Positions 15,249-33,391 of a DNA stretch of 34,218 nucleotides are shown piece after piece (the stretch's first letter is position 1; the number at the start of each line of letters is the position of its first letter). The DNA comes from a virus. The DNA lies in IMG/VR virus record IMGVR_UViG_3300043313_003968, positions 1-34,218 of that record. One strand, given 5' to 3'. Both the position numbers and the translations under genes were made by a program. A model generated the notes under the pieces. It worked only from the letters and a program-made list of their open reading frames with translations. It was not told the origin of the DNA and searched no databases.

Positions 15249-17297
15249 CTACGGCGTGACCTCGGTCAGGTCGGATGCCGATCCGGTCGGGACCAGCTCG
15301 GAGGTGACGTGCACCGACTCCCCGCCGACGTGCGCGAGGTTGTAGAACGACTCGGTGAACTCGCAGTAGGTGTTGTTCGCGACGTGAGCGCTGTCGCGGA
15401 TGACACCGAGATCGAGCGTGCCCCCGTCGAGCACCAGCCAGGTGCCCTCCGCGAACATGTCCCACTCGACCGTCTCGGGGAACCCGGTCGTGGTGGTCAG
15501 CTCCCACTCGTTGGCGCCACCTGCCGTGGTGTCGCCCCACTCGGGGAACGGCGAGCCCCAGGCGGACTCCATCGACCACGTGATGTTGATGTTCCGAGCG
15601 CTGAACCACTGGTTCAGCTTCGCGTCGGACAGCGCCATCACGTCGTTGAGACCGTCGCCGGGCATCTGGTAGGAGATGTCGGCGCGGATCAGGTCGTGGA
15701 TCCAGTAGGGCATGACCACCCGGAAGGACTGGGTCGGCGAGATGCGGTTGCGGTACCGGAGCACCGACGCCACCTTGTCGACCTGACCCAGGATCTCCCG
15801 AGCTGCACCCAGCGTCTGGGTGGCCGTGACGTTCTGCGTCGCGCCCGCCTTCAGCTTGGACAGGAAGAACTGCTCGGTGGACCGAGCGTGCTGTACCAGC
15901 GCCAGCTCGTTGTGCGCCCGCACCAGCTCGGGGAAGACCCGGCCGGTGAGGTTGTCGAAGCACAGGCAGACCGAGACCGCTTCGAGCACGGCCTCCTCGA
16001 ACGGCAGGCACTGGACCGGGAGGCAGGGCTTCTCGCCTCGGGGGTTGCCGCCGTCCAGATCGGTGACGTTCGACGCGGGGTCCCCCAGGGGGTCCCAGAC
16101 ACCGATGGCGCCGTCGTAGTCGGCCTCGGGAAGCAGCGGGCTCGGGTAGAACCGGATGCCACCTCGGTCTGCGGTGAACCGCGGGAGGGAGTCCTGCACC
16201 GGGGTGTCGGTGGAGCCGATGCCGTCGATGTCGTAGCGGATCTCCAGCGGGATGCAGGCCCCAGCCGCGGCCGTGATGGCCTCGACTCCGGCGACCTTCT
16301 GGATCTTGTCCCAGTTCCCCTCGGTGTCTCCCATCTGGAGGACGCGGTCCTCCGGGAAGCTCGCCGTGAGCGTCGCAACGGTGTACTGCTGGCCGTTGGG
16401 GGACGAGACACGGGAGAGGTTCTGCAGACGCTTCATGAAAGCGTTGGTGACCTGTGATGCGTTGGTCAGCTCGGTACCGGCACTGATGCCGGGGATGTCA
16501 GCCCCTGCCGTGATGGCCACGCTCGCGTGTTCGCGCGGAACAGGCCGATTGTCGGCGGGCGGCGTGACGACCACGTCGGATGCGGAGGCTGCCACTGGGA
16601 TCTCCTCGGTCTGGGCAGGTGGGTTGGTGGACACTGCTGCGGGCTCGGCTGCCACTTCGGCCGGAGGTGCCTCCGGAGTCGCTTCGGCCGTGGCCGTGTT
16701 GCTGGGCGGATCGGGCACATTGCTGGGTCCGGTCGGCTCGTTGTCCGGCGTCGTCGGCTCGTTCTCCGGCGTCGTCGGCTCGTTCTCGGGCGCAGGAGTC
16801 GGGGTTGAGGACGAGTCCTCCACCTCGGCGAAGGTTCCGGCCGGTACGGCCTTCTTCTTCTTCTCCTCCTCCGTCTCCTTGTCGCCCGCGGGGTCGGGGT
16901 CGGGAGTAGGTGGAGCGCCCTCGGGGGGCGGGACGTCCGTGGGTGCCTCGGCCGGGACGTCGGCGGGATCCGCAGTCGGCTCGGCGTCGACAGGGGCGCT
17001 GTCGTCGGAAGGCGCAGTCTCCCCGTCGGCGGGGTCCTCGTCCTGCTTGGGCTTGACGCGGGAGGCGGCCTCGGCGGCACGCTGCTCCAGATCCTTCGCT
17101 GCGGCGACCCTGTTGTGCTGCTCGCCGCGAACCGCGTCGAGAGCATCGGCCAGAGCCGTCATGGAATCGACTACTTGAGCCGTTGGCTCCTGCTTCTCGA
17201 CCGTCTCGAACTCGGAGATGATCTTGCTTTCCAGATCGGAAAGCTGCCCCTCGTCGAGGTCGGAGAGTCGGTCGAGCATCTCCTTGATGCCATCCAC
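15249..17297 (-). CDS. Major capsid protein with N-terminal scaffold-like region
   Basis: The gene starts at GTG 17297 (VDGIKEMLDRLSDLDEGQ, first residue Met) with GGAG six bases upstream. Residues 1-100 are charged helices (LESKIISEFETVEKQEP), like the delta/scaffold domain of HK97-type capsids. Residues 100-245 are a Pro/Glu/Thr linker with short repeats. From about 255 the capsid shell domain begins: ACIPLEIRYDIDGIG, RFTADRGGIRFYPSPLL, IGVWDPLGDP, a long helix around FPELVRAHNELALVQHARST, and RNRISPTQSFRVVMPYWIHD. This matches actinophage HK97-fold major capsid proteins. At 682 aa it is long, because scaffold and linker are fused. The protease upstream presumably removes the N-terminal part; no cleavage site is assigned. 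Confidence 0.88.
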   Translation of the reverse strand: MDGIKEMLDRLSDLDEGQLSDLESKIISEFETVEKQEPTAQVVDSMTALADALDAVRGEQHNRVAAAKDLEQRAAEAASRVKPKQDEDPADGETAPSDDSAPVDAEPTADPADVPAEAPTDVPPPEGAPPTPDPDPAGDKETEEEKKKKAVPAGTFAEVEDSSSTPTPAPENEPTTPENEPTTPDNEPTGPSNVPDPPSNTATAEATPEAPPAEVAAEPAAVSTNPPAQTEEIPVAASASDVVVTPPADNRPVPREHASVAITAGADIPGISAGTELTNASQVTNAFMKRLQNLSRVSSPNGQQYTVATLTASFPEDRVLQMGDTEGNWDKIQKVAGVEAITAAAGACIPLEIRYDIDGIGSTDTPVQDSLPRFTADRGGIRFYPSPLLPEADYDGAIGVWDPLGDPASNVTDLDGGNPRGEKPCLPVQCLPFEEAVLEAVSVCLCFDNLTGRVFPELVRAHNELALVQHARSTEQFFLSKLKAGATQNVTATQTLGAAREILGQVDKVASVLRYRNRISPTQSFRVVMPYWIHDLIRADISYQMPGDGLNDVMALSDAKLNQWFSARNINITWSMESAWGSPFPEWGDTTAGGANEWELTTTTGFPETVEWDMFAEGTWLVLDGGTLDLGVIRDSAHVANNTYCEFTESFYNLAHVGGESVHVTSELVPTGSASDLTEVTP
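16744..16785 (-). repeat. Two perfect 21-bp repeats in the capsid linker
   Basis: The unit tccggcgtcgtcggctcgtt plus c occurs at 16744-16764 and 16765-16785, preceded by a partial copy. It encodes repeated ENEPTTP steps in the linker between scaffold and shell domains. The linker is presumably discarded on maturation, so length change should be tolerated. Confidence 0.85.
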
Positions 17298-17921: not shown

Positions 17922-20900
17922 CTAGATCAGGAACCGCAGAATGCGCGACAGCTCGGCCGAGATCTGGGGCTGGGAGAGGACGTCACCTCCGGCCATGAAC
18001 TCGGAGATCTTGCCACCGGCCTCGTTCAGGTGCTCAGGGTCGAGGCGCTGCTCGGCGCGCTTGTACAGGTCTTGCATCAGGCCCTGCAGGTCAGGTGGCA
18101 GATCGGAGAACTTGTACTTCTCGTTGAGGTCACCGAAGACCAGCGGCAGGTTGGCCACCGCCTCGGCGAGGTTGCTGTAGCCCTCACGGAGCGTCTTGAC
18201 CGCACCCTCGTCCTCGGTGTTCTTCGCGATCTGGTCGACCAGGTCGAGCACGCCCTTGGCGGCCTGTTGGGCAGCCTCGGTGTCGCCCTGGTTGGCCGCC
18301 TGCTGGATCTCGTCCAGTCCTTCGACCGCCTGCTGGGTCCCGGCCTCGCCCTGCAGATCCTTCTTCAGCTCCGCGATCACCATCCGGAACCGGCCCTTCT
18401 CATCGCGCGGGTGGTTCGAGGGGTTCCACGGCGAGCCGTCGGGGTAGCGGCCTCCAGCGGCCAGCAGACTGATCCCGTCCAGGGTCTCGTCCGAAGCGCG
18501 CAGGATCAGCGGGATGCAGGCGCCACCAGCGATCAGCGCCATCCGCGCGGCGAGATCCTCGACCTCACCGGCGACGTCTTGGACCGGGGTGGTCATCGAC
18601 GCCCACGACTCCGGGATCAGGTCGGTCTTGCCGAGAGCCCGTGCCCGCTTGCGGATGTGGCGACGGACCTTCGGCTTGTCGCTGTCCTTGGCCCGGCCGT
18701 AGGCCCGGATGGCGTTCTTCAGGTCACCCACCGTGGCGATCGGGTAGGAACCGTCCGGCAGCGCCTGGCCCTTCTTGGACATCTCCTTGCGCTTGTCGGT
18801 GCCGATGTCGCGGAACAGCTCCTCGCCACCGCTCATCAGTGCCGCCATCCGCTCACGCGCGGCAGCAGCCTCCGGCGAGCGCACCGTGGTGAACCTGTTC
18901 AGTGCCGCCTCGCGGGCCGCGGCCATCCGGGCACGGTGCTCCGCGCGGACCGGGTCCATCCGGGCCAGCACCGACTCGCGAGCCTGAGCCAGCGCCTCAC
19001 GCTGCGGGGTCTCCAACGCGTCGACCCGCTCGATCAGCTTGTCCAGCGGTGCCGCATCGGCATCGGCCCGGATCCGGCTGAGCACGGCGGTGCCCGCCGC
19101 GACCAAGGCGTAGACGTGCCCGGAGGCAACCCGTGCGCGGGTGACCGGGAAGCCCGGCACGTTCACCTGGCAGACCGCGACCAGCTCCAGCCGCCCGTGG
19201 ATCGGGCGCCAGTCGCCGGACGGTGCCGCTGCCCGGATCGCTCGGACCTGGGAGGCGGTGACGTCGGGACGCAAGGCTCCGGCCACCCAGATGCCGTAGG
19301 CGTCCTCACCGGCGTGCACGTCGCACATCGCCGAAGCGGTGTCGTCGTAGTGCTTGACGGCCGCCGCGGCGTTGGCTTCCAGTGGTGCGTGCCCTCCGGC
19401 CAGGGTGATCTGGCCGACGGGGACGTCCTTGCCCTCTTCGGTGCGCAGCAGCCCGGTGTGGAAGTAGGCATAGTTCGACCGGCTCCGGGGCGGCCGGGTG
19501 GAGAACGGGAGTCCGATGTGCTCGGAGTCCCAGGTCGCCACGTGCCCGAAGACGCGACCGTCATCGAGGATGGTCAGCGGTGTCTCCTGCTTGAGCCCTG
19601 GGTCGTCGAACCAATCCAGGGGTGGGTGGATGGGGATGCCCGCTGCGGTCAACGCCGTGCGAACCATCTCCTCGGTCTCGGCCTCCGTGTTCGGAGTGCC
19701 GATGTAGGTCCCGTCGGCAACCATGGGCTCTTCCTCCTCCTGGCCTTCCTCTAGCTCGATGCGGACTTCCTGGAATGCGGGCTTGGCGACGAGCGTCGCG
19801 CCCATCACCCGCCCGTTGGTGACGACCATGTCGTCGGCGACGATGCGCACGATGTCGTCGCTGGTGCCCTCGCCGTGCTCGCGCTCGACCGTCTCGGGGC
19901 TGCGCGCCTCGGCCTCGAAGTTGTCGAGGTCCACCGAGACACCGCGCAGGAACTTGTGCCGGACCAGCCGCTCGGCCTCCTGGCCGTACGGCCCGACGTC
20001 GAAGACACCGCGGGCGTTGACCAGGGAGCCGTCCTCGCTGCGCTCCATCGAGTCGATCCGGCCCACGATCACCGAGTCGTCGTGGCCCTCGGCGGTCTTG
20101 ATCTGCCACATCAACGGCAGCGGCAGGTCGCGGGTGGTCAACGAGAGCGGCGCGAAGCTGCGCCCGTCACCGGACTTGACTCCGATCGGGGCCAGCACCG
20201 GGATCACGAACGGCGAGCCGGACAGCTCGGTGGGGACCTGGTCAGCTCGCTCGGGTGCCTCGACACCGGCGACCAGGCTGCTCGCACCGGCCAGCAGCGC
20301 GGAGTAGGCGATCACGTCATCGGTGCTCAGCAGGTGCACGTCGAAGAGCTGGCCACGCTCGGCGGCCGAACCACGACGTCCGACGTTGCGCCGGTCACCG
20401 GGCCACTCACCGGTCATCTCATGATGCAGCTCGGCGCAGTAGCCCTCGCTCATTCCCGGCTTGGGCATGTACTTCTTCAGGTGCCGGTTGCACCGGGTCC
20501 AGTCACCGGGAGTGTTCCAGCGGATCTTGGCGGTGCCCCCGGTGCCGGTGGTCCAGTACCGCTTGAGCCGCTCGACGTTGGCGACGTCGCTGGGTGTGTC
20601 GGCGATGCCGGGGATGCCTGCGGCGAGGATCTCGACGACCTCGCCATACTCGCCCCAGATGGCGGCGGCTGACGCTGCCACCGTGGCAGCCGCGTCCTTG
20701 GCCTCCTGCTCGGCTTCGGCCTTGCCCTCCGGCGTCTGGTAGAACGCCTGCACCTGGGTCATCGTGTCGTTGAAGGTGGCCTCGTCGAGAGAGACGATCG
20801 CGGGTGGCGAGCTGGACTGCAGCTGACGCAGCACCTTGGGATCGTTGACCCAGCCGGTGGCGGTGTAGCGCAGCACCTGCGCCTGGGTGCCGGTGGTGCT

Positions 20901-23402
20901 GGCCGGGACCATCGCCAGCAACTCCAGCACTGCCTGCTGGTTGGCCTCGTCCACCTCTGCCATGTAGACCGGCGCGACGTCGGACTGGGCAGGGTCGGTG
21001 ATCGGCTGCCCGGTGCCTCCGGCATCCGGCAGCACCGGCACCTCGGCCGGTTCGTCCTTCTTCTTGGCCGCAGCCGTCAGCCCGCGTCGATAGCGCGCGG
21101 GCAGGATCTTGCGGTAGATCCGGTCGATCGCGTCACGGGCGCTCTTGCCACCAGCGTGGATCTTCTCCAGCCGACGCTTGTAGTCGGCCTCGGCCTTGGC
21201 CTGCTCACGCTCCCAGCGCGCCTTGGACTCTGCGTCGAGCGCCTTCTGGGCCTGGTCGCGCGCCTTCTTCCCGGCGCGCTCCTTCTCGATGAAGTTGGGG
21301 TAGTTCGCGGCGACCGCCTTGAGCGCCTCGGCGTCCATCGGCGGCAGCATCGACTTCAGCAGCGCCTTGGGGGTGTTCGCGGTGGCGCGTGGCTTGCCCT
21401 CGATCTTGCTGACGTCGACGACCGGCGCCTTGTCGTAGTCCGCCGCGGGTGCAGCGGTGACCCTGGTGCTCTTGGCCGGGACCCACTCGCTGGTGCCGTC
21501 GTCGTCGTAGGTGACCTGGACCTGCTGGGTGGCCGGGTCGATCTTGGCCACCGTGCCGGTGCGGGCCTGGGGGCCGACGGCGATCTTGGAGCCGGACTTG
21601 GCGAACCGGCCACCGGCGTCACGGACCTGCTTCTTGGCGTTCTCCGCGCGCTCCTCGGGGGTGTACCCGTCGTCCTCGGCAAAGACGTAGGCGTGCGTAA
21701 CACCAGAGGCGGTGACGATCGCGACCCGGTTCAGCATCTCCTCGTCGAGGCCGGGGATGGCCTCGGCCATCACCAGCGCCTCGCCGGGGTCGACCTCGCG
21801 CAGGTCGACCTGTTGGTCGGGGTAGACCGAGAGCGCTCGGACCACCTCGCGGGCGGTGTCGTCGTCCAGCTCGATGATCTGCTCCGGCGAGCCGAGGTGA
21901 GCCTGCTCCCAGGTGCGGGTCCGCGGCTCGTAGCGGTAGAACATCGCGCCGTCGCTGACGTAGAGCTGGTCCACGCTCAGCGAGTCATCGCCGGTGTAGG
22001 CGGCGTAGTAGGTCAGCGGGTCGTCGGCCTCGGTGCCGCGCCGCTCCCAGAACACCGTCTTGAGGTCGTCGTCGGCACTGATCGCCTGCTCCACCGGGTC
22101 GTCGGCGTCGAACTCCTCCCAGTCCACCCCGTGGATGTCGGCCGCTGCCTTGATCGGCTGCGCAGGTTGCGCTGGCTGCCCCTCCTGCTCCCCCTCTCCG
22201 GCCTTGCCGTCCCAGTACTGCTGGGTCTCGGCGACCTTCTTGTCGACGTCGTCCTTGTGCAGGTAGTAGGCCGCCAGCGCCGCCTGCTTGTGCAGCGTGT
22301 CGTCGACCCCCTTTCCGCAGACCTCACACTTGTCGGGGTCCTGGACCGTCTCGGAGAAGTAGTGCGCGTCCTCCGGGGTGGTGTCGGCTTGGGTGTAGTC
22401 GACCGCGTCACCTTGATGACGCTCGTCCATCTCGCCCGTACCGCAAAACATGCAGAAATCTGGGTTCTCCAACACCGGAGCGAACACGTGCGGAGCGTCG
22501 CCGTCGAAGCTCTCCGCGTCGGCGACCTCCTCCTCGGCCACTACCGCGGCGTCGGCGTCGTAGCCGGTGGCCAGCAGCGCCTCGGACTCCACCCGGCGGA
22601 TGGTTCGGCGCGCCCAGTCACGTCCGGCGTCGCCACCCAGGGCCAGGTAGGTCAGGGCGCGGGAGGAGGGGTAGCGGGCCGAGGACTTCGAGCCGCCGCA
22701 GCTGCACGAGCCGTTGCCGTCGCACGCGGAGGTGTGCGGACCGTTGAGCACGGTGAACGCGCGCGGCAGCAGTCGCAGCGTGTCGTAGTCGATCTCCTGG
22801 TCGTCAGCCAGCTTCTGGCTGATCGTGCCGGTGACGCTGTCCTCGGCACCGGCCACTCGCGCGGCCCAGACCCGACCGGAGTTGCCACCCCAGGACAGCC
22901 ACTCAGCCGGGTCCACCTTGGTCTGCTCGTGCCGGTCGAAGTAGGCGTTCATCTGCTGGACCAGCCGGGGCGGGACGATGCTGCCCTCGGAGAGTCGTTC
23001 GGCGCGGGCGCGGGCGGTCTCGTTCAGACCGAGGTCGAGTGCGCTCTGGGCGACCACCTGGACCGAGAGCGGTGGCACCAGGCTGGCTCCGGCGGTGATC
23101 GCTGGCAGCTCGATCGGGCGGGCGTAGACCTGGGTCCAGTACTGGGCCTGACGGGCGTTGGCGCGCACGGGCTCGGGGACGGCGAAGGTGCGCAACGGGT
23201 CGGGGCTGGCCAGCACCGAGCGGGCCAGCAAGGCGGCGCGGCGCTCCTCGGAGCTGTGTCCGGGCGGCACGAAGCCGCCGTGGTGATCCAGCTCGGCGGC
23301 GCTGAAAACGTCGGTGACGTCACCGGACTTCAGGTCAACAGCGACCGCCGATCCGGCGTGCTCGAAGAACATCCAGCCGCTGCTGGCACCGAGTGTCCGC
23401 AT
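17922..23402 (-). CDS. Giant capsid maturation protease fusion
   Basis: This 1826-aa protein contains several modules. Residues 1-310 are an uncharacterised N-region with a CDGNGSCSCGG cluster. Two CxxC-x-H motifs follow (CMFCGTGEMDERH near 315, CEVCGKGVDDTLH near 357). An SH3-like segment lies near 605 (ARTGTVAKIDPATQQVQV). A conserved actinophage block is near 945 (RYWTTGTGGTAKIRW with paired Cys). The HK97 prohead protease domain covers about 1060-1200, with His1107 (AEGHDDSVIVGRID) and Ser1156 (FLRGVSVDLD) as likely catalytic residues. A second domain near 1265-1420 (DGRVFGHVATW, PSGDWRPIHGRLELVAV) is common beside these proteases. The end has WNPSNHPRDEKGRF and helices. Typical prohead proteases are about 200-300 aa, so this is far larger. 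It should process scaffold and capsid. The start is weakly supported (only G-rich sequence upstream). Confidence 0.82.
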   Translation of the reverse strand: MRTLGASSGWMFFEHAGSAVAVDLKSGDVTDVFSAAELDHHGGFVPPGHSSEERRAALLARSVLASPDPLRTFAVPEPVRANARQAQYWTQVYARPIELPAITAGASLVPPLSVQVVAQSALDLGLNETARARAERLSEGSIVPPRLVQQMNAYFDRHEQTKVDPAEWLSWGGNSGRVWAARVAGAEDSVTGTISQKLADDQEIDYDTLRLLPRAFTVLNGPHTSACDGNGSCSCGGSKSSARYPSSRALTYLALGGDAGRDWARRTIRRVESEALLATGYDADAAVVAEEEVADAESFDGDAPHVFAPVLENPDFCMFCGTGEMDERHQGDAVDYTQADTTPEDAHYFSETVQDPDKCEVCGKGVDDTLHKQAALAAYYLHKDDVDKKVAETQQYWDGKAGEGEQEGQPAQPAQPIKAAADIHGVDWEEFDADDPVEQAISADDDLKTVFWERRGTEADDPLTYYAAYTGDDSLSVDQLYVSDGAMFYRYEPRTRTWEQAHLGSPEQIIELDDDTAREVVRALSVYPDQQVDLREVDPGEALVMAEAIPGLDEEMLNRVAIVTASGVTHAYVFAEDDGYTPEERAENAKKQVRDAGGRFAKSGSKIAVGPQARTGTVAKIDPATQQVQVTYDDDGTSEWVPAKSTRVTAAPAADYDKAPVVDVSKIEGKPRATANTPKALLKSMLPPMDAEALKAVAANYPNFIEKERAGKKARDQAQKALDAESKARWEREQAKAEADYKRRLEKIHAGGKSARDAIDRIYRKILPARYRRGLTAAAKKKDEPAEVPVLPDAGGTGQPITDPAQSDVAPVYMAEVDEANQQAVLELLAMVPASTTGTQAQVLRYTATGWVNDPKVLRQLQSSSPPAIVSLDEATFNDTMTQVQAFYQTPEGKAEAEQEAKDAAATVAASAAAIWGEYGEVVEILAAGIPGIADTPSDVANVERLKRYWTTGTGGTAKIRWNTPGDWTRCNRHLKKYMPKPGMSEGYCAELHHEMTGEWPGDRRNVGRRGSAAERGQLFDVHLLSTDDVIAYSALLAGASSLVAGVEAPERADQVPTELSGSPFVIPVLAPIGVKSGDGRSFAPLSLTTRDLPLPLMWQIKTAEGHDDSVIVGRIDSMERSEDGSLVNARGVFDVGPYGQEAERLVRHKFLRGVSVDLDNFEAEARSPETVEREHGEGTSDDIVRIVADDMVVTNGRVMGATLVAKPAFQEVRIELEEGQEEEEPMVADGTYIGTPNTEAETEEMVRTALTAAGIPIHPPLDWFDDPGLKQETPLTILDDGRVFGHVATWDSEHIGLPFSTRPPRSRSNYAYFHTGLLRTEEGKDVPVGQITLAGGHAPLEANAAAAVKHYDDTASAMCDVHAGEDAYGIWVAGALRPDVTASQVRAIRAAAPSGDWRPIHGRLELVAVCQVNVPGFPVTRARVASGHVYALVAAGTAVLSRIRADADAAPLDKLIERVDALETPQREALAQARESVLARMDPVRAEHRARMAAAREAALNRFTTVRSPEAAAARERMAALMSGGEELFRDIGTDKRKEMSKKGQALPDGSYPIATVGDLKNAIRAYGRAKDSDKPKVRRHIRKRARALGKTDLIPESWASMTTPVQDVAGEVEDLAARMALIAGGACIPLILRASDETLDGISLLAAGGRYPDGSPWNPSNHPRDEKGRFRMVIAELKKDLQGEAGTQQAVEGLDEIQQAANQGDTEAAQQAAKGVLDLVDQIAKNTEDEGAVKTLREGYSNLAEAVANLPLVFGDLNEKYKFSDLPPDLQGLMQDLYKRAEQRLDPEHLNEAGGKISEFMAGGDVLSQPQISAELSRILRFLI

Positions 23403-23888: not shown

Positions 23889-24078
23889 CGCGCTCTCCTC
23901 CCTCGGTGGTGGGTTCTGCGGTGGGTTCCTCGTGCTGCACCGCGCCAGGGAACAGTGCAGTCCATTCTTGCGGCGTCATCCGGATGGCGTCGAACTCGGA
24001 TCCAGGGGGTGGGTTGCCCTCGTAGCGCAGCAGCGCCAGGAAGTCCGGCATGCTCAGCTTCTCGATGTCGACAGTCAT
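23851..24078 (-). CDS. Hypothetical 75-aa protein
   Basis: It starts MTVDIEKLSMPDFLALLRYE, its ATG overlapping the giant protein's stop (TGATG), so it is probably translated by reinitiation. The middle reads FDAIRMTPQEWTALFPGAVQ and the end is Thr/Glu/Pro-rich. No family recognised. First of three small overlapping genes between the two giant proteins. Confidence 0.6.
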   Translation of the reverse strand: MTVDIEKLSMPDFLALLRYEGNPPPGSEFDAIRMTPQEWTALFPGAVQHEEPTAEPTTEGGERDAGHSQPATAPV

Positions 24079-27000
24079 CAGGTCACCTCTTCGGTCTCCG
24101 CTTCGTCGGGCTGCTCGGTCGCAGCAGGTTCGTCATCGCCGTCCTCGACGGAGAAGGTGGTGTCCGGCTCGGCCACGATCGGCGGATCCGGCCAGACGTA
24201 GGAGCCGTACCAGTAGGCGCGCTCGGCGACGCCCTCCGGGCTGTGGTCCAGGGAGTAACCGACCTCTTCGTCCTCGGGCTCTGGTTCAGCAGAAGCAACC
24301 AGGTGGCCAAGCCGCGCGGAGCCGTCGCCGCTGATCCGCCACTCCCCGTTCTGCGATTCGAGAGCAGCGGCCACCGGGGCCTCCGGGGCGTCCCCGTCCA
24401 CGGCGGCCGGACCACCGGTGACCGGCGCTCCGCCGATCGACTGCACCACGTCACCCTCGACCAGCCCGTAGGGCGGGGAGTCGTCGAAGGAGTGCGGCAC
24501 ACCGGCGCTGTCCTCGAACCGCTCCCACACGGCCGGGGAGATGTAGGAGTCGCGGGCCACCGTCCAGGTGTCGTTGATCGCGGCGCCGACCTTCTTGGAG
24601 ACCTCGGTGCGGGCCTTCTTCAGCGACGCCTCGTTCTTGGGCAGCCGGGACTTCGGCCACTTCGCGACCAGCTCGCGGCCCATGTTGGTGGCGAACCGGG
24701 TCCGGGTGTCGTGGTTGATGATGTCCTCGATGCCAGTCGCCTCGCGCAGGTAGTCGATCGTCCGGCCCGAGTTCGTGGTCGCGAAGACCTGGTCCGAGGG
24801 CTTCTTGCCCTCCAGCAGTTGCTGCACCGCCGCGCGCAGCACCGGGTTGCGGGACTCGTAGACGTTCGGAGTGCCCGCCTTGCCGGGGAACTTGAACCGC
24901 ATCAGCGTGTCGCTGGGGAAGAACACATGCTTGGCCTGCATCGTGGCGCCACCGAAGGTGGGCACCTTCTTGCCGGTCTTCCGGTCGGTGCTGCCCGCCT
25001 TCTCCGAGGAGCCGACCCGCATCCCGGTCTCGATCATGGCCAGCACCAGGGCGGCGGTCTCGTCGTACATCGCCTCGGCCTCGGCCTTAGCGTGCGCGGT
25101 CTCCAGAGCGCTGTTCACCCGCTGCTGGCGCTGGAACTTCGCGGCCAGCTGGGTGGCCTTGTGCTGGTCGGTGTACTCCACGGTGTACTTCGGGTGCCCG
25201 GCCATCACCGCCTTCCAGATCACCGAGCTGCCCTGCTCGGCGAAGGCCGGGTTCCAGGTCACGTGGATCGCGGTCGGCGGCGGCAGGGTGGCACCGGGGC
25301 TGGCCTGCTTGACCGCGGTCTCCATCGCCTGCCACTCCGGGGAGCCGCGTTCGATCGGTTGCATCTGGATCAGGCCGTGCTGCTTGGACAGGTGCGTGGC
25401 CGACTTCTGCTTCTGCTCCGCGGTGGCCCGCTTCTGCAGCGGTGTCTTGGCGGTGGCCCCCAGCTCCATCCCCATCACCGCGCTGCGCAGCTCCGAGCGC
25501 ACCGGCATCGGCCGTGGCTGGGACATCAGCTTCGGCAGCCGGTTCTTCTCCAGGTCGTCGAAGAAGGCGTAGATGGCCTGGCCCGCCTCGTACTCGCGGC
25601 GCCGGATCTCCTTGTGGTCCAGGTCCCCGGCCCACTCGACGAGCTGGCCGCGGTCCTTGGTCAGCTCGCGCGCGATCAGCACGTAGGCGGTCTGCTTGCT
25701 GAGCGGGCCGGAGCCCTCGGGCAGCTCGGCCAGCCGCTGCAATCCCCTGGCGTACGCCGCGTAGCCCTCGGCGAACATCTCCTTCTTGCCCGAGAAGCCG
25801 TTGTGGTTGAGCGCGCCCTCGTCGGCGTTGCGGAAGTACCAGTACAGCAGCGACTGCTCCGGGCTGCGCCCGTACTGCAGGGTCTGCTTGATGCTGGTGT
25901 GGAACTTCGCGAACTCGGCGTCGTGGTCGGTGAAGAAGCTGCCTTCGACGCTCAGCTCGCCCAGCATCGAGTCCAGCGCGTGGCCCAGCTCGTGCACGAT
26001 CACGTGCGAGCCGGTGCCGGTGTCGGTGATCGCTCGGCTGTCGGCGATGATCACCGTGTTGCTGTCCTTGAGGTAGGCGCCCTCGACCTGGTCGGCGGTG
26101 CGCCGGTCGGAGCCGGAGCGCTGCTGCCAGCCCTGCAGCAGCTCGCTGCCGGGGATGTCGGCCTCGGTGATGTCGTTCTGCACCCGGTGCAGCCCGCCGC
26201 CCATCGAGGTGAACATCGAGTTCAGCGCCGAGGCGACGTTGGGGGTCAGCTGCTCCAGCCCGTCGCGCCAGGCCATGTCGGCCTCGACGCTGCCATTGCC
26301 CTCGGGCCGGTCGTCGCTGACCAGATCAGTGGAGAACTGCGGCTCCGGGACCCAGTCCACCGTGGTGTAGCGGCCGTTGGTGGCCTCGGCGATGTCGACG
26401 TCGCCGGAGGCGACCAGGTCTTCGAGGTCGGCGCGCTGCAGCACGCTGCTGAAGGCACCGAACCGCTGGAAGGCCGGGTCCTGCAGGATCTCGCGCATCG
26501 GGTCGGGGATGGAGCCGCCGTTGGCGGCGATCTGGTCGGTGACCAGCTTGTTCACCGCAGCGGCCAGGGTCCGGTGCAGGAACGGTGTCGGGGACTGTTG
26601 CACCAGCTCACGGATGCCGCTCAGCCACTCCACGCCGCTGTCCAGTCCCGACTCTCCAGCGTCGCGCTCACGGCGGTACTTCATCCCGGCGCGGTTGGCG
26701 GCCACCATCGTGGCTTCTTCCCAGGCCGGGTCCGGGTCGAGCAGGTCGGCCGCACCGAACTTGTCCAGCTGCTCGCGCAGCACCCCGTCGAGCGCGGTGG
26801 TGTCGAAGCCCTGCTCCTTCAGCTCGCCCAGGAAGTTGCGGGCCTGGTTGGTGTCGGCCTCCAGCCGCTGCACCAAGGTGGCGATGTCCTTGACCTGCAT
26901 CGGGTGCAGCCCAACCCGAGCCTCCGGGTCGCGCAGCGCTTGAGCCAGGCTGAGGATCGAGGACATCTCGGTGACCAGCTGCTGGTACTCGCCCAGGTTG

Positions 27001-30000
27001 CGGACCCGGTCGTTCTCCATCCGGTTGGCTGCCTCGACCGATCCGGTCTCCATCAGGGACCGGGCGAACCGGAGGTCGGACGGAGCGTCCTCGCGCGATG
27101 CTCCGTCCGCCTCCTCACGTGTGGTTGCCACATACCCATCCACACGCTGCTTGAGGAAGTCCGCCTGATTCTCGGCGGACAGGGTGGTGTCGGCGGTGCC
27201 GTTCCAGATGTCGAGGATCGACTGGGCATCGTCGCCGTAGCGGTCCAGTTCGGTGGCCACGTCATCAGCGGTCAGCTCGCTCGTGGACCACGTCGGATCG
27301 AGGTTCTTCCGGATGGCCGCCGCGGCGTTGACCCGGCGCATCATCTCGAACTTGGCGACGTTGACCTCGGCGTTGGCCAGCGAGCCCTCCTCGACCTGGT
27401 CGAGCAAGGAGGAGTAGCCGCTCAGCTGGGCTTGTAGGTAATCGTCCTCAATGCGTTCAAGCTCCGCACGGCGTTCGGGGTCAGTGAGGACTTCTCGGAG
27501 CGACTCGGGGTCGTCGCCGCGAAAGGGCGCGCCACCACCTTCCTCTCCAGGGGTTCCACCCTGGGGACCGTTGGCCGGTCCGGCGCCACCGTCGAGTTCG
27601 TCGGCGACACGGCGCAGCTCGTCGACGGCTGCACTGGGGTCACTCAGGCCGAAGTTGCCTTCGAGGTAGTCGGCCAGGTCCCGCAGATCCTTCGACAGCT
27701 CGGTGTAGGGACCCTCGCTGGTGACCCGGCCGCGGATCAGGCCGAGCTGGGCATTGGCCTCGTCGGTCAGCTCGGTCCAGCCGACCGGGCCGTTGTCGCC
27801 CTCGGTCTCGTTCTCGGTCTCGATCGCGCTCTCCACGTCGGAGAGCGCGCTGGTGACCTCGGCTACTTGGGCCGCTTCGCCCCCGCCGCCTGCTGGGGCT
27901 TCACCTTCGGCTTCGCCCACCCCTGGTGGGGCTTCTCCTTCGCCTTCGCCTGGGCGTGCCACTGCGCCTGGCTCTGCTTCTCCTTCTCGGCCACCTGCTT
28001 CACCTTCCGCGATGTACGGCGGCCAGTATCCCAGGCCATCCGCGAAGTTGTAGGCGCCCCCGACTGCGCCGGTGTACGCGCCGATCTGCTCGACGTCATC
28101 CTCGTTGTCGACCACCAGCACCGGGTCGATCTCGATGTTGCCGGTGTCCTCGTTGCGGAAGACGCCGAGGTGGGCGCCCTCCATCGACAGCGGCCCGTCC
28201 TCGCCGCCGTACCGGGTCGCCGCCTCGTCCATGGCGGTGTTGAACTCGTCCTGGCTGGCTCCGATCGGCACGCTCACCGACTCCATGCCGGGCGGGCGCA
28301 CGGTCATCGCGAAGCCCTCGGTCGGGCTGACGATCTGGGACTCGTGGGCATCGACGGTGATGCCGCCCCACTCCTCCTGGACCGAGTCCCAGGCGTCGGA
28401 CTTCAGCGTCTCCAGGGTCTCGCCCTGGGTCACCGTGGGTGCCGAGGAGTTCTCCCAGCGGCCCTCCAGCTTGGACTTGCCCTGCACCGCGAGCGCCGCG
28501 AACTCCACCGGGTCGACCGGCCGGGTCCGCTCGGTCTCGGGGTTGGTCAGCGAGTCCTGGGTGATCGGGGTGACCTCGCCGACACCGGCGTTGGTCAGCG
28601 CTTCCTGCGCGGACGGGGCGCCACCTTGCGGCGCGGCGGGCGCCTGCTCGGGTGCCCCCTGGGCGGCCGGGGCGGTGGTCCCACCCATCGCCTCAAGCCG
28701 ATCGGCGTGCTCACGGGCGCGGGTGGCGGGTGCATCGGTCGGGGTGTCAAGCGCGTCGTAGGCGTCCGCGGCGTCGCGGAACTTGGCCGCGGCTGCCGCG
28801 TTGTCGCCGTTCTTGACGTCGGTCCGGGCGCCGTCGACCAGGCTGCGGACGTCGTCGCTCTGGGAGAGTCCGCTCAGGAGATTGCCGACGTCGCTGGTCC
28901 GCCGGAGCGCGGTGTTCTGGCTGGAGTACCCGCGTGCCCCTTCCTCTCCGGCTGCCCGCGCCAAACGATGAGCCATCTGCGCTGCGACGCCCTTGTCCGA
29001 AGGCTTGTCGAACTCGCTGACGTCCAGTGCATCGACGGCGTCCGCCAACCGTGAGGCGTCCGCACCACCAATCACCTCTCCGCTCTTGAGCTTCTGCAGG
29101 AACTCCTCCATGGCCTGACGCTGGGGCGCCGCGTTGGCCCCGCCGGTGTAGAGGTTCTCGTTGGCCGAGAGCTGGTCGACGAGCTTCTTCTGCTTGGCGG
29201 TGAGCCTCGCACTGACCTGCCCGGACCCGGCCACGCGGACCGCGCGCTCCTCGGAGCGGGGGTCTTCGACTGCTTCGGTGGGAGCGTCCGGATCACCGCC
29301 GAGAGCGACGTTCATCAGCGCGCCGTCGCTGATGTTCACGTACTGGTTGGCGTCGGTGTTGGCCGCGGCGTCGCTGGCGTCCTGCTCGTTGTCGAAGACA
29401 CCGACCCGCGCCATCCGGTAGCGGCCGTCGTCCTCGTCGTGCCAGACCGAGACCCCGTCGAGGTCGCTGCCCTGGGTCTCGTTGAGGAAGTCGGTGATGT
29501 CGGCGGTGGTCGGCTCGGCGTCGAACTCGGTGACGGTGGCCGGGTCGACCACGTAGAAGCCCTCGTCCACCTGCTGGTCGCCCTGCATGACCAAGGTGGA
29601 GCCGTCGTCCATCAGCAGCGCCTCGGAGACCGCGTCGTCGAGCTTGTCGACCTTCGGGTCCACGCCCTCCGGCGTCTCGTCGGGACGCTCGGCCGGACGG
29701 TCCGGCCGGGAGACCGGCTCGGGGGCACCGAAGATGTTCTCGCCCGCGTCCAGCTTCTGCTGGACGAAGTCGGCCATCGGCACGTTGTCGGTGGCGCGGC
29801 CGTTGAGCACCGCGGCCAGCCGGGACCGGCGCAGGTTGCCGTTGACCTGGGAGTTGGTGACCCGTGCCAGGCCGCGCAGCGAGTCGACCACAGCGTCACC
29901 GTCCTGGGCCTCGACGGCAGCAGCCAGCTCACCGTGCCACTTGTCGAGCTGCATCCGCTGGACGTTGCTGCCGGTGCTGTCCTGCTTGGCCTCGTCCACC

Positions 30001-32237
30001 AGGCGGCCGAGGTCGCTGACCAGCTTGCTCGCCAGGGCCTGGGCCGGGGGCTCCTCGGGCGGCTGCTCCTGGGTACCGGCGGCGTCGGCCACGGCCTGGT
30101 CGATGGCGGCCTGATCGTTGGCCGGGATCGGGTCCTCGGTGTTGTCGTCCACGATCACGTTGCCGTCTTCCTCACGGACGGTGACGCCACCTTCGGTGAC
30201 CTTCTCCTCGGGGTTGGCGGGGTTGGTCGGGTCCTCCCCGCTGGCCTCGGTCTCGGGTGCGTGCGGTGCCTCCGGCGGCTGCTCGGGAGCCTCGCGGAAC
30301 TGTCCGGCCGAGGCAGCCGCCAGCCGGTCCCACTTCGCCAGCTCGTCGCGGTCCTCGGTGGCCACTTCCTGTCCGGCGGACAGGCTCTGGTCGCGCCGGT
30401 TGTAGAGGGCGTCGACGTCGTCGAGGCCCTGCTGGAACTTGGCGTCGGTGACCATCGCGGCCTGGATGGCGCCGAAGTCACTGCCGTCGCGGATCACCTG
30501 GGCCACCGAGTCGGCGCCCATCGCCTCGGCGTCGGCTGCGGCCTCGTCACGGGTCGGCACGTAGTTGTTGTCGCCGTAGCCGGACTCACCGGGGTAGACG
30601 TCGGAGGAGGGACCGTGCAGCCGGGTCAGTCGACGCGAGCTGACTCGCGCCGCCTTCTGGCCGTTCGGGTACTGCACCTTGGTGGTGTTCTCGTGGGGGT
30701 CGATGTAGGTGACCACCCCGACCTCGCCGTTGGGTCCCATCACCGAGTCGCCGACCCGGACTGCCTCGCCGTTGCTGTCCTGCCGGACCCGGTCCTGGAC
30801 CGGGGCGACGTCGAAGAAGCCGCCGGTCGGGGAGATCCGCTTGGCGTCGGGACTGGCGTACCGGCGCGACATCGTGTCGATGTAGTCGGCGGTGAAGGAG
30901 TTCACCAGGCTCTTGGCCGACTCCGAGGCGCCCATCAGCGCGAGCTGGGAGAAGACCTGAGACTGCTCGTCGTCCCCGGCCAGCTCGATCGAGCCGCCCT
31001 GGACCGAGTGGTCCTTGTACTTCTTGGTGTAGCCCTTGTCCCCGGAGGGGTCGAAGTCGCGGACGTAGACGTGCTTCTTGCCGTCCTTGTCGGTGTAGAT
31101 CCGGGTGACCATCCCGGTGAAGCCCTCACGGGACTTGGTCGGGTCGGTGTGCACGATCGAGCCGACCACCACCTCGTCGCCGTTCTTGTCGGCGTGGAAC
31201 CGGTCACCGGGGGCGACCTGGGCAGCCTGCTTGTAGCCCGACAGCCGGGACAGCCCGGTCTTCAGCCTCTGGTAGGTGGAGCGCTGCAGCTCGGGCAGCA
31301 CCTTCTGGCCCTGCTGCTCGCGCACGTCGTCGCGGACCTCGGCCTTGACCGGCTGTTCCAGGCGGCCCTCGGTCAGGGTGCCGGAGGTGGCGTCCCAGAC
31401 CTTGGCGTCGGCGTCGTAGTCCTTGCGCAGCTCCTGCTCGGCGGTCTGGATCCGGACCTCACCGGCCTTGGCCTTGACCGGGCCTTCGTCGTTCTCGGCG
31501 TCGATGGTCTTGTCACCGAGGCTGTGCCGGGCGGTGAAGGTGGTGCCCATCACCGCGTCCAGGGTCTGCAGCCGGGCCTTCTCCTCCGAGGTCAGCGAGT
31601 CCTTGACGTCCTCGTAGTCGGTGCCCTCGTCGAAGCCCTTGCCGCGCTCGGCGCCCAGCTCCTCGGCCACCTCGCGCATCAGGTCGATGGCACGCTGCTT
31701 GTTCGCCGCCGACGCCGGGTCGCGCGGATTGGGGGTGGCCACCGCGAGCTGCCGGGCCTCTTCGAGCTTGTCGGCCTGCTCGTCCATGCCGAGCCGGTGC
31801 AGGTTCGCCACGCCGGTCTCGACGCTGGCGTTCTCCTGCTTGTTCAGCACACCGGCCGCGCCGCGGCCCCCGAGCTGGGCCTTGACGGTGCGGACCTGGA
31901 CCTGGTCGTGCGGGACCTTGACGTAGTCGCCCTCGCTGACGCCGGGGGGCGCCCCTGGCCCGACGCCTTGGACCTTGATCAGCAGGTTGCCGTCCCTGTC
32001 GATGCCGGAGACGCGACCGGAGACCGAGCCACCGGCACCGCCCGGAGTGCTGGCGCCGCCAGGGAGGTCGAAGGTGACGAAGGAGAAGGTCCGGATGAAC
32101 CGGCCGTTCTCGTCACGGGGGTGCTTGAGCGGGTTCCAGCGGCGGCCCAGGGCGTCGATGACGACGATGAACTCGTCGCGGTGCCCGATGTTCATGAACT
32201 CGGTGTTGGCGTAGCGATGGACCTGCGGAGCGCTCAT
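24078..32237 (-). CDS. Giant polyvalent-type protein with metallopeptidase and topoisomerase IB-like domains
   Basis: This 2719-aa protein overlaps the previous gene by four bases (ATGA). Near the start is WNPLKHPRDENGRF (34-47). SH3-like beta segments lie near 345-405 and 495-535. Long acidic helical linkers and a Gly/Glu run near 1410-1450 follow. A zinc peptidase region has HVIVHELGHALDSML (His2082, His2086) and, about 70 residues on, KKEMFAEGYAAYARG with Glu2153/Glu2157 as third-ligand candidates. The C-terminal region about 2270-2580 resembles a full type IB topoisomerase: GHPKYTVEYTDQHKATQLAA, IETGMRVGSS (Arg2407), QAKHVFFPSD (Lys2436), NHDTRTRFATNMG (Arg2512) and VARDSYISPAVWE (Tyr2565). 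The position usually held by a catalytic His (or Asn) carries Asp2556. Placement after portal and before protease suggests an internal head protein injected with DNA (inference). Confidence 0.85.
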   Translation of the reverse strand: MSAPQVHRYANTEFMNIGHRDEFIVVIDALGRRWNPLKHPRDENGRFIRTFSFVTFDLPGGASTPGGAGGSVSGRVSGIDRDGNLLIKVQGVGPGAPPGVSEGDYVKVPHDQVQVRTVKAQLGGRGAAGVLNKQENASVETGVANLHRLGMDEQADKLEEARQLAVATPNPRDPASAANKQRAIDLMREVAEELGAERGKGFDEGTDYEDVKDSLTSEEKARLQTLDAVMGTTFTARHSLGDKTIDAENDEGPVKAKAGEVRIQTAEQELRKDYDADAKVWDATSGTLTEGRLEQPVKAEVRDDVREQQGQKVLPELQRSTYQRLKTGLSRLSGYKQAAQVAPGDRFHADKNGDEVVVGSIVHTDPTKSREGFTGMVTRIYTDKDGKKHVYVRDFDPSGDKGYTKKYKDHSVQGGSIELAGDDEQSQVFSQLALMGASESAKSLVNSFTADYIDTMSRRYASPDAKRISPTGGFFDVAPVQDRVRQDSNGEAVRVGDSVMGPNGEVGVVTYIDPHENTTKVQYPNGQKAARVSSRRLTRLHGPSSDVYPGESGYGDNNYVPTRDEAAADAEAMGADSVAQVIRDGSDFGAIQAAMVTDAKFQQGLDDVDALYNRRDQSLSAGQEVATEDRDELAKWDRLAAASAGQFREAPEQPPEAPHAPETEASGEDPTNPANPEEKVTEGGVTVREEDGNVIVDDNTEDPIPANDQAAIDQAVADAAGTQEQPPEEPPAQALASKLVSDLGRLVDEAKQDSTGSNVQRMQLDKWHGELAAAVEAQDGDAVVDSLRGLARVTNSQVNGNLRRSRLAAVLNGRATDNVPMADFVQQKLDAGENIFGAPEPVSRPDRPAERPDETPEGVDPKVDKLDDAVSEALLMDDGSTLVMQGDQQVDEGFYVVDPATVTEFDAEPTTADITDFLNETQGSDLDGVSVWHDEDDGRYRMARVGVFDNEQDASDAAANTDANQYVNISDGALMNVALGGDPDAPTEAVEDPRSEERAVRVAGSGQVSARLTAKQKKLVDQLSANENLYTGGANAAPQRQAMEEFLQKLKSGEVIGGADASRLADAVDALDVSEFDKPSDKGVAAQMAHRLARAAGEEGARGYSSQNTALRRTSDVGNLLSGLSQSDDVRSLVDGARTDVKNGDNAAAAAKFRDAADAYDALDTPTDAPATRAREHADRLEAMGGTTAPAAQGAPEQAPAAPQGGAPSAQEALTNAGVGEVTPITQDSLTNPETERTRPVDPVEFAALAVQGKSKLEGRWENSSAPTVTQGETLETLKSDAWDSVQEEWGGITVDAHESQIVSPTEGFAMTVRPPGMESVSVPIGASQDEFNTAMDEAATRYGGEDGPLSMEGAHLGVFRNEDTGNIEIDPVLVVDNEDDVEQIGAYTGAVGGAYNFADGLGYWPPYIAEGEAGGREGEAEPGAVARPGEGEGEAPPGVGEAEGEAPAGGGGEAAQVAEVTSALSDVESAIETENETEGDNGPVGWTELTDEANAQLGLIRGRVTSEGPYTELSKDLRDLADYLEGNFGLSDPSAAVDELRRVADELDGGAGPANGPQGGTPGEEGGGAPFRGDDPESLREVLTDPERRAELERIEDDYLQAQLSGYSSLLDQVEEGSLANAEVNVAKFEMMRRVNAAAAIRKNLDPTWSTSELTADDVATELDRYGDDAQSILDIWNGTADTTLSAENQADFLKQRVDGYVATTREEADGASREDAPSDLRFARSLMETGSVEAANRMENDRVRNLGEYQQLVTEMSSILSLAQALRDPEARVGLHPMQVKDIATLVQRLEADTNQARNFLGELKEQGFDTTALDGVLREQLDKFGAADLLDPDPAWEEATMVAANRAGMKYRRERDAGESGLDSGVEWLSGIRELVQQSPTPFLHRTLAAAVNKLVTDQIAANGGSIPDPMREILQDPAFQRFGAFSSVLQRADLEDLVASGDVDIAEATNGRYTTVDWVPEPQFSTDLVSDDRPEGNGSVEADMAWRDGLEQLTPNVASALNSMFTSMGGGLHRVQNDITEADIPGSELLQGWQQRSGSDRRTADQVEGAYLKDSNTVIIADSRAITDTGTGSHVIVHELGHALDSMLGELSVEGSFFTDHDAEFAKFHTSIKQTLQYGRSPEQSLLYWYFRNADEGALNHNGFSGKKEMFAEGYAAYARGLQRLAELPEGSGPLSKQTAYVLIARELTKDRGQLVEWAGDLDHKEIRRREYEAGQAIYAFFDDLEKNRLPKLMSQPRPMPVRSELRSAVMGMELGATAKTPLQKRATAEQKQKSATHLSKQHGLIQMQPIERGSPEWQAMETAVKQASPGATLPPPTAIHVTWNPAFAEQGSSVIWKAVMAGHPKYTVEYTDQHKATQLAAKFQRQQRVNSALETAHAKAEAEAMYDETAALVLAMIETGMRVGSSEKAGSTDRKTGKKVPTFGGATMQAKHVFFPSDTLMRFKFPGKAGTPNVYESRNPVLRAAVQQLLEGKKPSDQVFATTNSGRTIDYLREATGIEDIINHDTRTRFATNMGRELVAKWPKSRLPKNEASLKKARTEVSKKVGAAINDTWTVARDSYISPAVWERFEDSAGVPHSFDDSPPYGLVEGDVVQSIGGAPVTGGPAAVDGDAPEAPVAAALESQNGEWRISGDGSARLGHLVASAEPEPEDEEVGYSLDHSPEGVAERAYWYGSYVWPDPPIVAEPDTTFSVEDGDDEPAATEQPDEAETEEVT

Positions 32238-33391
32238 GACAGCAGGTCCCGGTCGTCGGTACGGGCCGACAGGTCACCCTGGGCCAGCCGGATCAGACTG
32301 TTCACCCGCGCCTGGGCGATCACGTCGCGCGGCAGTGGAGGGCGGCTCTGCGGCGCGGTCATCGTGTACTCCCGGACCCCGCGCATGTAGGCCGCGCGCA
32401 GGGCAGTGTCGGAGATCGTGGAGAGCTGGGTCTTGAGGACGAACAGGTCCGGAACGTCAGTGCCGTTCTGGGCTGGTACCGCAGTGACGTCTTGAGCTGC
32501 CTGAGCTGCTTGAGCTGGCGCTGCAGCGGGGGCGGGCGTCGGCTGGCGCAGCCAGTGCTGCGGGATCAGGTGCTGCAGGCTCAGCTCGCGGGCGCGCTTG
32601 GCCAGGCGGCGCCGGGTGAAGACCCGTGACAGCTCGGCCTCGATCTGGTCGGCCGCCGTGCAGGCGGCGGCCAGCGACTCGGCGTCGTCGACCGCGAGCT
32701 TGGGCACGGCGCCGAAGACGTCGATGAGCAGGTTGTCGCCTTCCATCGGAGTGTCCGCGATCGCCTCGGTCATCGCCTCGATCAGCTGCTTCTCGAACTC
32801 GGTGGCGTCCTCCCCGAACAGGACGTCGCGCTCGGTGGGGCCGGGGGCAGGGTCGGTGTTCTCCTCGGTGGAGGCCGAGGGGCCGAGCGGGTACTCGGTG
32901 TGCTCGTCGCCGTCCCAGACGCCCAGCCGGTCGAAGATGATCTCCTCGGGGCTGTCGTCAGGGGCGAGCGGCTCGTCCATGTCGTAGCCCGCGGTGACGT
33001 GCGGAGTGAACTCGGGGAACTGCTCGACCGCACCGGCGCCGTCGGCGATCGCGGGCTGGGCCAGCAGGGCGTCGCGGGTCGGGGTGACACCGTCACCGTT
33101 GACGAACCAGACGGTGGCGTTCTCGTCGCCGAGCTGGCCGGTCTCCTTGACCTGCTCGGTCAGTGGCCCGTCCGCCTGGGCGGCGACCTGCTCGACCTGG
33201 TCGCGGACCTGGTCCATGTCGAGGTCGGGGTTCTCCTCGGGCTTGCCCAGCCAGAGCATCGTCATGTGCTTGGGCTCGGAGACGTCGCCCAGGTGATGGA
33301 CGGGCTCGGTGGCCGTGGGGATCGCCACGATGCAGCGCCCGGAGTTGGTGCGCTCCTCACCGGGGTCGGGTGCGATGGGCGTCTCGGTCAT
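32234..33391 (-). CDS. 2H-phosphoesterase-domain protein in the head module
   Basis: The 385-aa protein overlaps the portal gene by four bases (ATGA). Residues about 15-145 show both signature motifs of the 2H phosphoesterase superfamily: KHMTMLWLG (His42-x-Thr44) and FTPHVTAGYD (His131-x-Thr133), 89 residues apart, with strands before each (CIVAIP and ATVWFVNG). Such enzymes open 2',3'-cyclic phosphates or cleave 2'-5' and related linkages; phage members include Acb1, which destroys CBASS cyclic nucleotides. The rest is helical (FEKQLIEAMTEAIADTPMEG, ELSRVFTRRRLAKRARELS) with an Ala/Pro/Gln linker and a closing LRAAYMRGVREYTM segment. Placement between portal and giant protein suggests it is a virion protein. 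The substrate is unknown; the enzyme motifs are clearly visible. Confidence 0.75.
   Translation of the reverse strand: MTETPIAPDPGEERTNSGRCIVAIPTATEPVHHLGDVSEPKHMTMLWLGKPEENPDLDMDQVRDQVEQVAAQADGPLTEQVKETGQLGDENATVWFVNGDGVTPTRDALLAQPAIADGAGAVEQFPEFTPHVTAGYDMDEPLAPDDSPEEIIFDRLGVWDGDEHTEYPLGPSASTEENTDPAPGPTERDVLFGEDATEFEKQLIEAMTEAIADTPMEGDNLLIDVFGAVPKLAVDDAESLAAACTAADQIEAELSRVFTRRRLAKRARELSLQHLIPQHWLRQPTPAPAAAPAQAAQAAQDVTAVPAQNGTDVPDLFVLKTQLSTISDTALRAAYMRGVREYTMTAPQSRPPLPRDVIAQARVNSLIRLAQGDLSARTDDRDLLS

Follow-up and report, generated by a model that had tools for sequence, protein, structure and literature searches.

A giant head-module protein ends in a topoisomerase IB domain

The window, by which we mean the whole 34,218-base stretch of DNA analyzed here, is a full IMG/VR record (IMGVR_UViG_3300043313_003968); it is probably a genome fragment, since its portal gene runs past the end, and it comes from a large virus whose host is probably an actinobacterium. 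Its head genes follow one another in the order portal (phrog_776), 2H-phosphoesterase-like open reading frame (ORF), giant, protease, and capsid (Table 1). Our subject is the giant, a protein of 2719 amino acids (aa) with a net charge of -203, which has at its C terminus a full-length domain of type IB topoisomerase (TopIB), as judged by its fold and by the catalytic set Arg-Lys-Arg-Tyr (R-K-R-Y); this domain may be enzymatically active. An earlier note, made from the sequence alone, had proposed both a complete TopIB at the C terminus and its fusion to a 2719-aa protein of the head module. We arrived at the same view of the domain by four routes that agree with one another (Pfam, a match to the Deinococcus TopIB, AlphaFold2 [AF2] with Foldseek, and an independent ortholog), and the ORF is real and uninterrupted, with portal, protease, and capsid genes around it. 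The possibility that it is a chance or antisense ORF was rejected, as the 1201-aa ORF on the opposite strand is an artefact of high GC and an ortholog exists for that on the minus strand. The giant overlaps its upstream ORF by 4 nucleotides, and overlaps of this length run from portal through 2H to giant, so that the three form a coupled operon of late head genes. The earlier placement of the giant between portal and protease was right in outline, but the 2H-phosphoesterase-like ORF intervenes on the portal side.

At the sequence level, PF01028 (Topoisom_I) scores over its curated cut-off across aa 2363-2559, with E-values of 1.3e-8 for the whole protein and 1.5e-9 for the C-terminal piece. 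The closest solved relative by sequence is the Deinococcus TopIB (2f4q/3m4a; E 1.4e-7), in an alignment that extends through the tyrosine (RDSYISP versus RGSYICP). All peptides quoted in the earlier note are present, namely, AGHPKY at 2346, GMRVGSS at 2405, KHVFF at 2436, HDTRTRF at 2509, and INDTWTVARDSY at 2554. The domain consists of an N-terminal part (~2280-2375) and a catalytic core (~2376-2580). Its AF2 model, built from five sequences, has a mean pLDDT of 76.6 and a pTM of 0.70, with most core blocks at ~90 or higher and a less confident N-terminal part (blocks of ~53-80). This structural check, which the note had suggested, returned a TopIB fold: all 22 Foldseek matches in the PDB at E<=1e-3 are TopIBs (archaeal, Deinococcus, human, Leishmania, and poxvirus), the top tyrosine recombinase being XerH at 1.6e-2, and the two best matches among viral models are the Motura and PaBG topoisomerases. 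The TM-scores are moderate (0.4 to 0.6), which the looser modelling of the N-terminal part would lead one to expect. The interval first assigned to the domain, 24078-26000, does contain the TopIB, but the domain proper spans only ~24468-25400, and a HELGHALD zincin motif inside the interval (25971-25994) had been overlooked.

Table 1. Coordinates of the features in the window and of the proteins found at the equivalent position in related phages
Feature	Coordinates	Strand	Size or position	Evidence or content
Major capsid protein	15249..17297	-		phrog_777, 6.6e-83
MuF/capsid maturation protease protein	17922..23402	-	1826 aa	two RDxxGRF motifs, aa 594 and 1666
Giant head-module protein	24078..32237	-	2719 aa	ATG start, uninterrupted; 2723-aa ortholog
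TopIB domain	24468..25400	-	aa ~2280-2590	PF01028, PDB sequence, AF2, Foldseek
Tyr2565, nucleophile	24543..24545	-		Deinococcus alignment; invariant 11/11
Asp2556	24570..24572	-		His265/Asn280 position
Arg2512	24702..24704	-		vaccinia R223 position; invariant 11/11
His2509	24711..24713	-		vaccinia K220 position
Lys2453, catalytic lysine (FPGKAG)	24879..24881	-		vaccinia K167/human K532 position; invariant 11/11
Arg2407	25017..25019	-		vaccinia R130 position; invariant 11/11
Zincin-like metallopeptidase domain, probable	25518..26360	-	aa ~1960-2240	HELGHALD 2082, EMFAEGYAAY 2153
HPRDENGRF motif of the giant	32097..32123	-	aa 39-47	proposed head-targeting tag
2H-phosphoesterase-like ORF, between portal and giant	32234..33391	-		weak Acb1-like match
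Portal protein, C-terminal part, off contig end	33388..34218	-		phrog_776, 5.5e-50
DSL-LC01 slot giant			3289 aa	
Cece slot giant			1654 aa	
Talia1610 gp77 slot giant			2709 aa	UvrD helicase, HEFGHSLD
Atuin gp71 (Arthrobacter phage)	L044:1060-10401		3113 aa	annotated DNA helicase; UvrD and ADP-ribosyltransferase
Forza gp80 slot giant			1017 aa	ADP-ribosyltransferase
L013 slot giant (IMG/VR)	L013:3-7409		2468+ aa	acetyltransferase match, two separate HEXXH

Active site

To view the active site, we aligned 11 TopIBs: those of the window phage and its ortholog, of jumbo phages, a eukaryote-like viral one, and bacterial ones. R2407, K2453, R2512, and Y2565 are invariant. Thus, the arginines and the tyrosine that the earlier note had named as catalytic lie at the active site, whereas its Lys2436 falls away from the position of the catalytic lysine, in a column holding K, Q, S, or R; the true catalytic lysine is Lys2453. 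The histidine at position 2509 stands where vaccinia has Lys220, as is usual in tyrosine recombinases (PMC2666729); in the alignment, the TopIBs of Motura, L019, and PaBG have it too. The jumbo-phage TopIBs (L022 from PaBG; L018 and L019 from Motura and a relative) hold, with this HxxR histidine, a state intermediate between TopIB and tyrosine recombinases.

The fifth catalytic position varies across the TopIB family between His and Asn, and the enzymes of Deinococcus and Pseudomonas, which are active, have Asn at the vaccinia His265 position (PMC2666729). The giant has neither residue. Asp2556 stands at this position, as had been recognized from the start, and within the alignment Asp occurs only in the window phage and its ortholog, while the remaining TopIBs have His (the eukaryote-like and jumbo-phage ones) or Asn. 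Since the family varies here, we treat Asp2556 as a variant state of the TopIB active site. The suggestion that it may alter activity has to be weighed against the Asn of the active bacterial enzymes and the retention of Asp in the ortholog.

An orthologous locus in a second phage contig

The ortholog lies in a 176,996-bp IMG/VR contig (G001; L010/L015), in which portal, 2H-like ORF, a 2723-aa giant, and protease follow in the same order. The protease proteins of the two phages are 86% identical, the giants 52% overall, and the TopIB domains 38%. PF01028 was found independently in the G001 giant (3.5e-14), and all six active-site residues (R2407, K2453, H2509, R2512, D2556, and Y2565) are retained, which at only 38% domain identity suggests selection for catalysis. 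We did not use dN/dS as evidence of selection, as a GC3 of ~0.9 compresses dS and leaves domain ratios near 1 uninterpretable. Along the giant, identity to the ortholog is 55 to 86% over most of the stretch up to residue ~1570 and 26 to 45% beyond, with an abrupt fall from 69% to 26% at aa ~1570 (window ~27530). This break suggests a boundary of recombination or module exchange, so that the C-terminal module (helical region at aa 1570-1960, zincin, and TopIB) may have been exchanged or may be evolving separately.

In a tree of the 11 TopIBs, window and G001 group together at 100/100; their link to the jumbo-phage TopIBs is without support, and no specific sister relation emerges. Searching for further TopIBs in proteins encoded, like the giant, in the slot between portal and protease, we obtained no case from tblastn against 50,697 phage records or from genome contigs, and in IMG/VR only that of G001, the contig and IMG/VR scans using short exact patterns that distant members could escape. 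Likewise, G001 was the only one of ten related phage records searched to hold a TopIB, and plasmids, where annotated, carry only bacterial "DNA topoisomerase IB" genes. A different fusion was seen in a 485-kb uncultured phage (LR745208; L020:5422-6948), where a TopIB is joined to an N-terminal domain with FFDFDGTL that, from its sequence, looks like a phosphatase of the HAD/polynucleotide-kinase type.

A probable zincin domain precedes the topoisomerase

The domain directly before the TopIB is, from its sequence, probably a zincin metallopeptidase. The region matches the phrog_4415 peptidase (8.2e-9) and, under the cut-off, Pfam ATLF (4.2e-4), and tblastn gave weak matches to mycobacteriophage metalloproteases. 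Its motifs are kept in the G001 ortholog as HELGHALD and EM(F/W)A(E/Q)GYAAY. The phage-type signature of the polyvalent metallopeptidase (MPTase), as described in PMC5512222, comprises HEXXH, a downstream Glu in the following helix, and an Asp three residues on; the giant shows HEXXH, the downstream Glu, and the Asp at +3. An AF2 model of the region, made from two input sequences, reached a mean pLDDT of 39.

The portal-to-protease slot and a shared N-terminal motif

Across related actinophages, giants of 1,000 to 3,300 aa are encoded between the portal and the capsid maturation protease; their content changes from phage to phage (Table 1), and the interval is probably a cargo slot in many of them. 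BLASTP of the window giant against three other slot giants gave no significant similarity. The TopIB fusion that the earlier note called striking is real, but it is not an isolated oddity, since the slot probably holds cargo in many actinophages.

What many slot giants do share is the motif R-D-x-x-G-R/K-F/W, usually near the N terminus (aa 19-41) and common to several giants without significant BLASTP similarity to that of the window, in which it is possibly followed by a small SH3-like barrel. The same motif occurs in protease proteins, as HPRDEKGRF near aa 1666 in that of the window. When four giants were shuffled, it fell within the first 60 aa in <=0.05% of cases. Profile comparison linked the window pair to the C-terminal copy in the protease (94.9%) and to the N termini of other giants (86.5%), and in G001 motifs of the RD type are confined to giant and protease. 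By analogy with the internal proteins of T4, which have nothing in common but an N-terminal leader (PMC12373910), we propose that RDxxGRF may be a head-targeting element.

Of the neighboring genes, the 2H-like ORF has a weak match to Acb1 (anti-CBASS), at 0.012 in the window and 6e-4 in its ortholog (L015:14170-15759, minus strand); in smaller actinophages, MuF/protease fusion proteins have an N-terminal part related to it. Elsewhere in the window, an ORF beside tail genes (9146-10216, minus strand) matches Polyketide_cyc (START-like) just over the Pfam cut-off (4.4e-5).

Proposed function and its alternatives

Polyvalent proteins are a class of co-injected effectors defined by Iyer, Burroughs, Anand, de Souza, and Aravind in 2017 (PMC5512222). 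We assign the giant to this class because of its zincin domain, its RDxxGRF motif, and its ortholog. One 2719-aa ORF unites disparate domains (zincin signature, TopIB, and N-terminal module), and it lies in a conserved slot among the head genes of a portal-terminase phage. Taken with the intact R-K-R-Y, the orthologous locus, and the slot cargo of relatives, as read from sequences and models, this makes it reasonably probable that the giant is a polyvalent-type head cargo protein that is ejected with the DNA and whose TopIB relaxes the incoming genome. The giant would be translated from the late head operon together with the portal, loaded into the procapsid, probably by means of the RDxxGRF module at its N terminus, and would enter the host by ejection along with the DNA. 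There, the zincin domain would probably process the polypeptide and free the adjoining C-terminal TopIB, which would nick and reseal the incoming or newly circularised genome; torsion would thus be relaxed before any topoisomerase could be newly synthesized, which would favor early transcription or replication. Packaging is plausible, and we infer every step past encoding in the head operon, that is, packaging, cleavage, relaxation, and the DNA targeted.

Several observations weigh against this account. We found no virion proteomics of these phages and no test of Asp at the His position in any TopIB, and the zincin domain is a probable one judged from its sequence, the AF2 model being poor. 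Forza gp80 lacks the RDxxGRF motif, two giants have it at aa ~209, and in Talia1610 it occurs in one unrelated non-head gene besides two slot proteins. Moreover, a late-expressed TopIB could simply work in the producer cell.

In this first alternative, which we regard as unlikely but as the strongest competitor, the enzyme would belong to the machinery of packaging or assembly, would act late on concatemers or on DNA that is being packaged at the portal, and would not reach the next host. The coupling of its gene to the portal in a late operon would suit such a role, and an acidic protein of extended shape could serve in the manner of a scaffold. However, the ADP-ribosyltransferase, acetyltransferase, and helicase domains of its slot mates fit injected effectors better, and relatives with the slot but without TopIB evidently package their DNA. 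Somewhat less likely still, the domain may be dead or altered, with the Asp2556 TopIB only binding DNA as a cargo tether or nicking without efficient resealing. It is true that Asp2556 is unique to the window/G001 pair and that the domain evolves fast (38% identical, compared with 86% in the protease), but the remaining catalytic residues, including the tyrosine, are kept in both phages, and Asn at the same site is compatible with activity (PMC2666729). A third and improbable alternative is that the injected TopIB serves as a weapon, relaxing the host nucleoid and disturbing host transcription. Polyvalent proteins are conflict associated, according to PMC5512222, and the C-terminal module diverges fast, like an effector. 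Yet no sequence feature favors the host over the phage chromosome, and the few copies in a virion would presumably be up against a large host genome served by a gyrase of its own. An identity as tyrosine recombinase or integrase is largely refuted and very improbable for the domain: the TGMR and HDxR motifs resemble recombinase boxes I and II, His2509 is in the recombinase state, and there is a weak Phage_integrase match (E 0.075), but profile and fold comparison reject this reading, a TopIB-like N-terminal part is present, and jumbo-phage TopIBs share the His at 2509.

If the giant is indeed injected head cargo, the phage would set DNA topology from the virion, beyond what newly made or host enzymes provide, and a new activity would be added to the known injected effectors. 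Vaccinia TopIB is listed as a known virion enzyme (PMC1540416) and, together with the N4 virion polymerase (PMC5512222), provides a precedent for the proposed mechanism. It is tempting to speculate, with a little less than even confidence, that the virions of some tailed phages contain a giant head protein with a self-releasing TopIB domain, so that an untwisting enzyme would come along with the genome; this would be a bacteriophage counterpart of the poxvirus virion topoisomerase, with an Asp-variant active site. The Asp variant offers a natural experiment on the task that the fifth catalytic residue must perform in TopIB. Furthermore, the slot comparison yields a simple head-cargo rule for actinophages (a gene between portal and head protease, with RDxxGRF near its start), applicable to the cultured isolates Talia1610, Atuin, Cece, and Forza.

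Comparison with known systems

Polyvalent proteins and standalone phage TopIBs are already known; their combination is apparently new. It was not found in the 50,697 phage records searched or in the main text of PMC5512222, where, the supplementary domain table lying outside this scope, "topoisomerase" appears only in the title of a cited reference; a term missing from a text counts for little as evidence. Like the window giant, polyvalent proteins are giant and multidomain, sit in the portal-terminase head module, combine enzymatic domains of unrelated activity, and feature the zincin MPTase signature (HEXXH, downstream Glu, Asp at +3) and a 2H-phosphoesterase neighbor; the window giant differs in carrying a TopIB. 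The standalone TopIBs of the jumbo phages Motura and PaBG (PMC7824862) share R-K-R-Y and the HxxR histidine with it, but are encoded by separate genes among DNA-metabolism genes and have His, not Asp, at the fifth position. The TopIBs of Deinococcus radiodurans and Pseudomonas aeruginosa show the same compact domain order, and in Deinococcus the tyrosine likewise lies 9 residues past the residue at the His position; unlike the window domain, they are standalone chromosomal enzymes in which Asn takes the His position and Lys that of the HxxR histidine (PMC2666729). The virion RNA polymerase of phage N4, as described in PMC5512222, resembles the window giant in its size, its union of a nucleic-acid enzyme with a zincin, its late-gene location, and the injection that we propose for the giant; it holds a polymerase instead of a TopIB, and its packaging has been shown experimentally. 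Finally, the T4 internal proteins Ip1-3 (PMC12373910) are, like the slot giants, unrelated cargo sharing only an N-terminal motif, in their case a capsid-targeting leader; they are small, and their leader is established, whereas the role of RDxxGRF is proposed.
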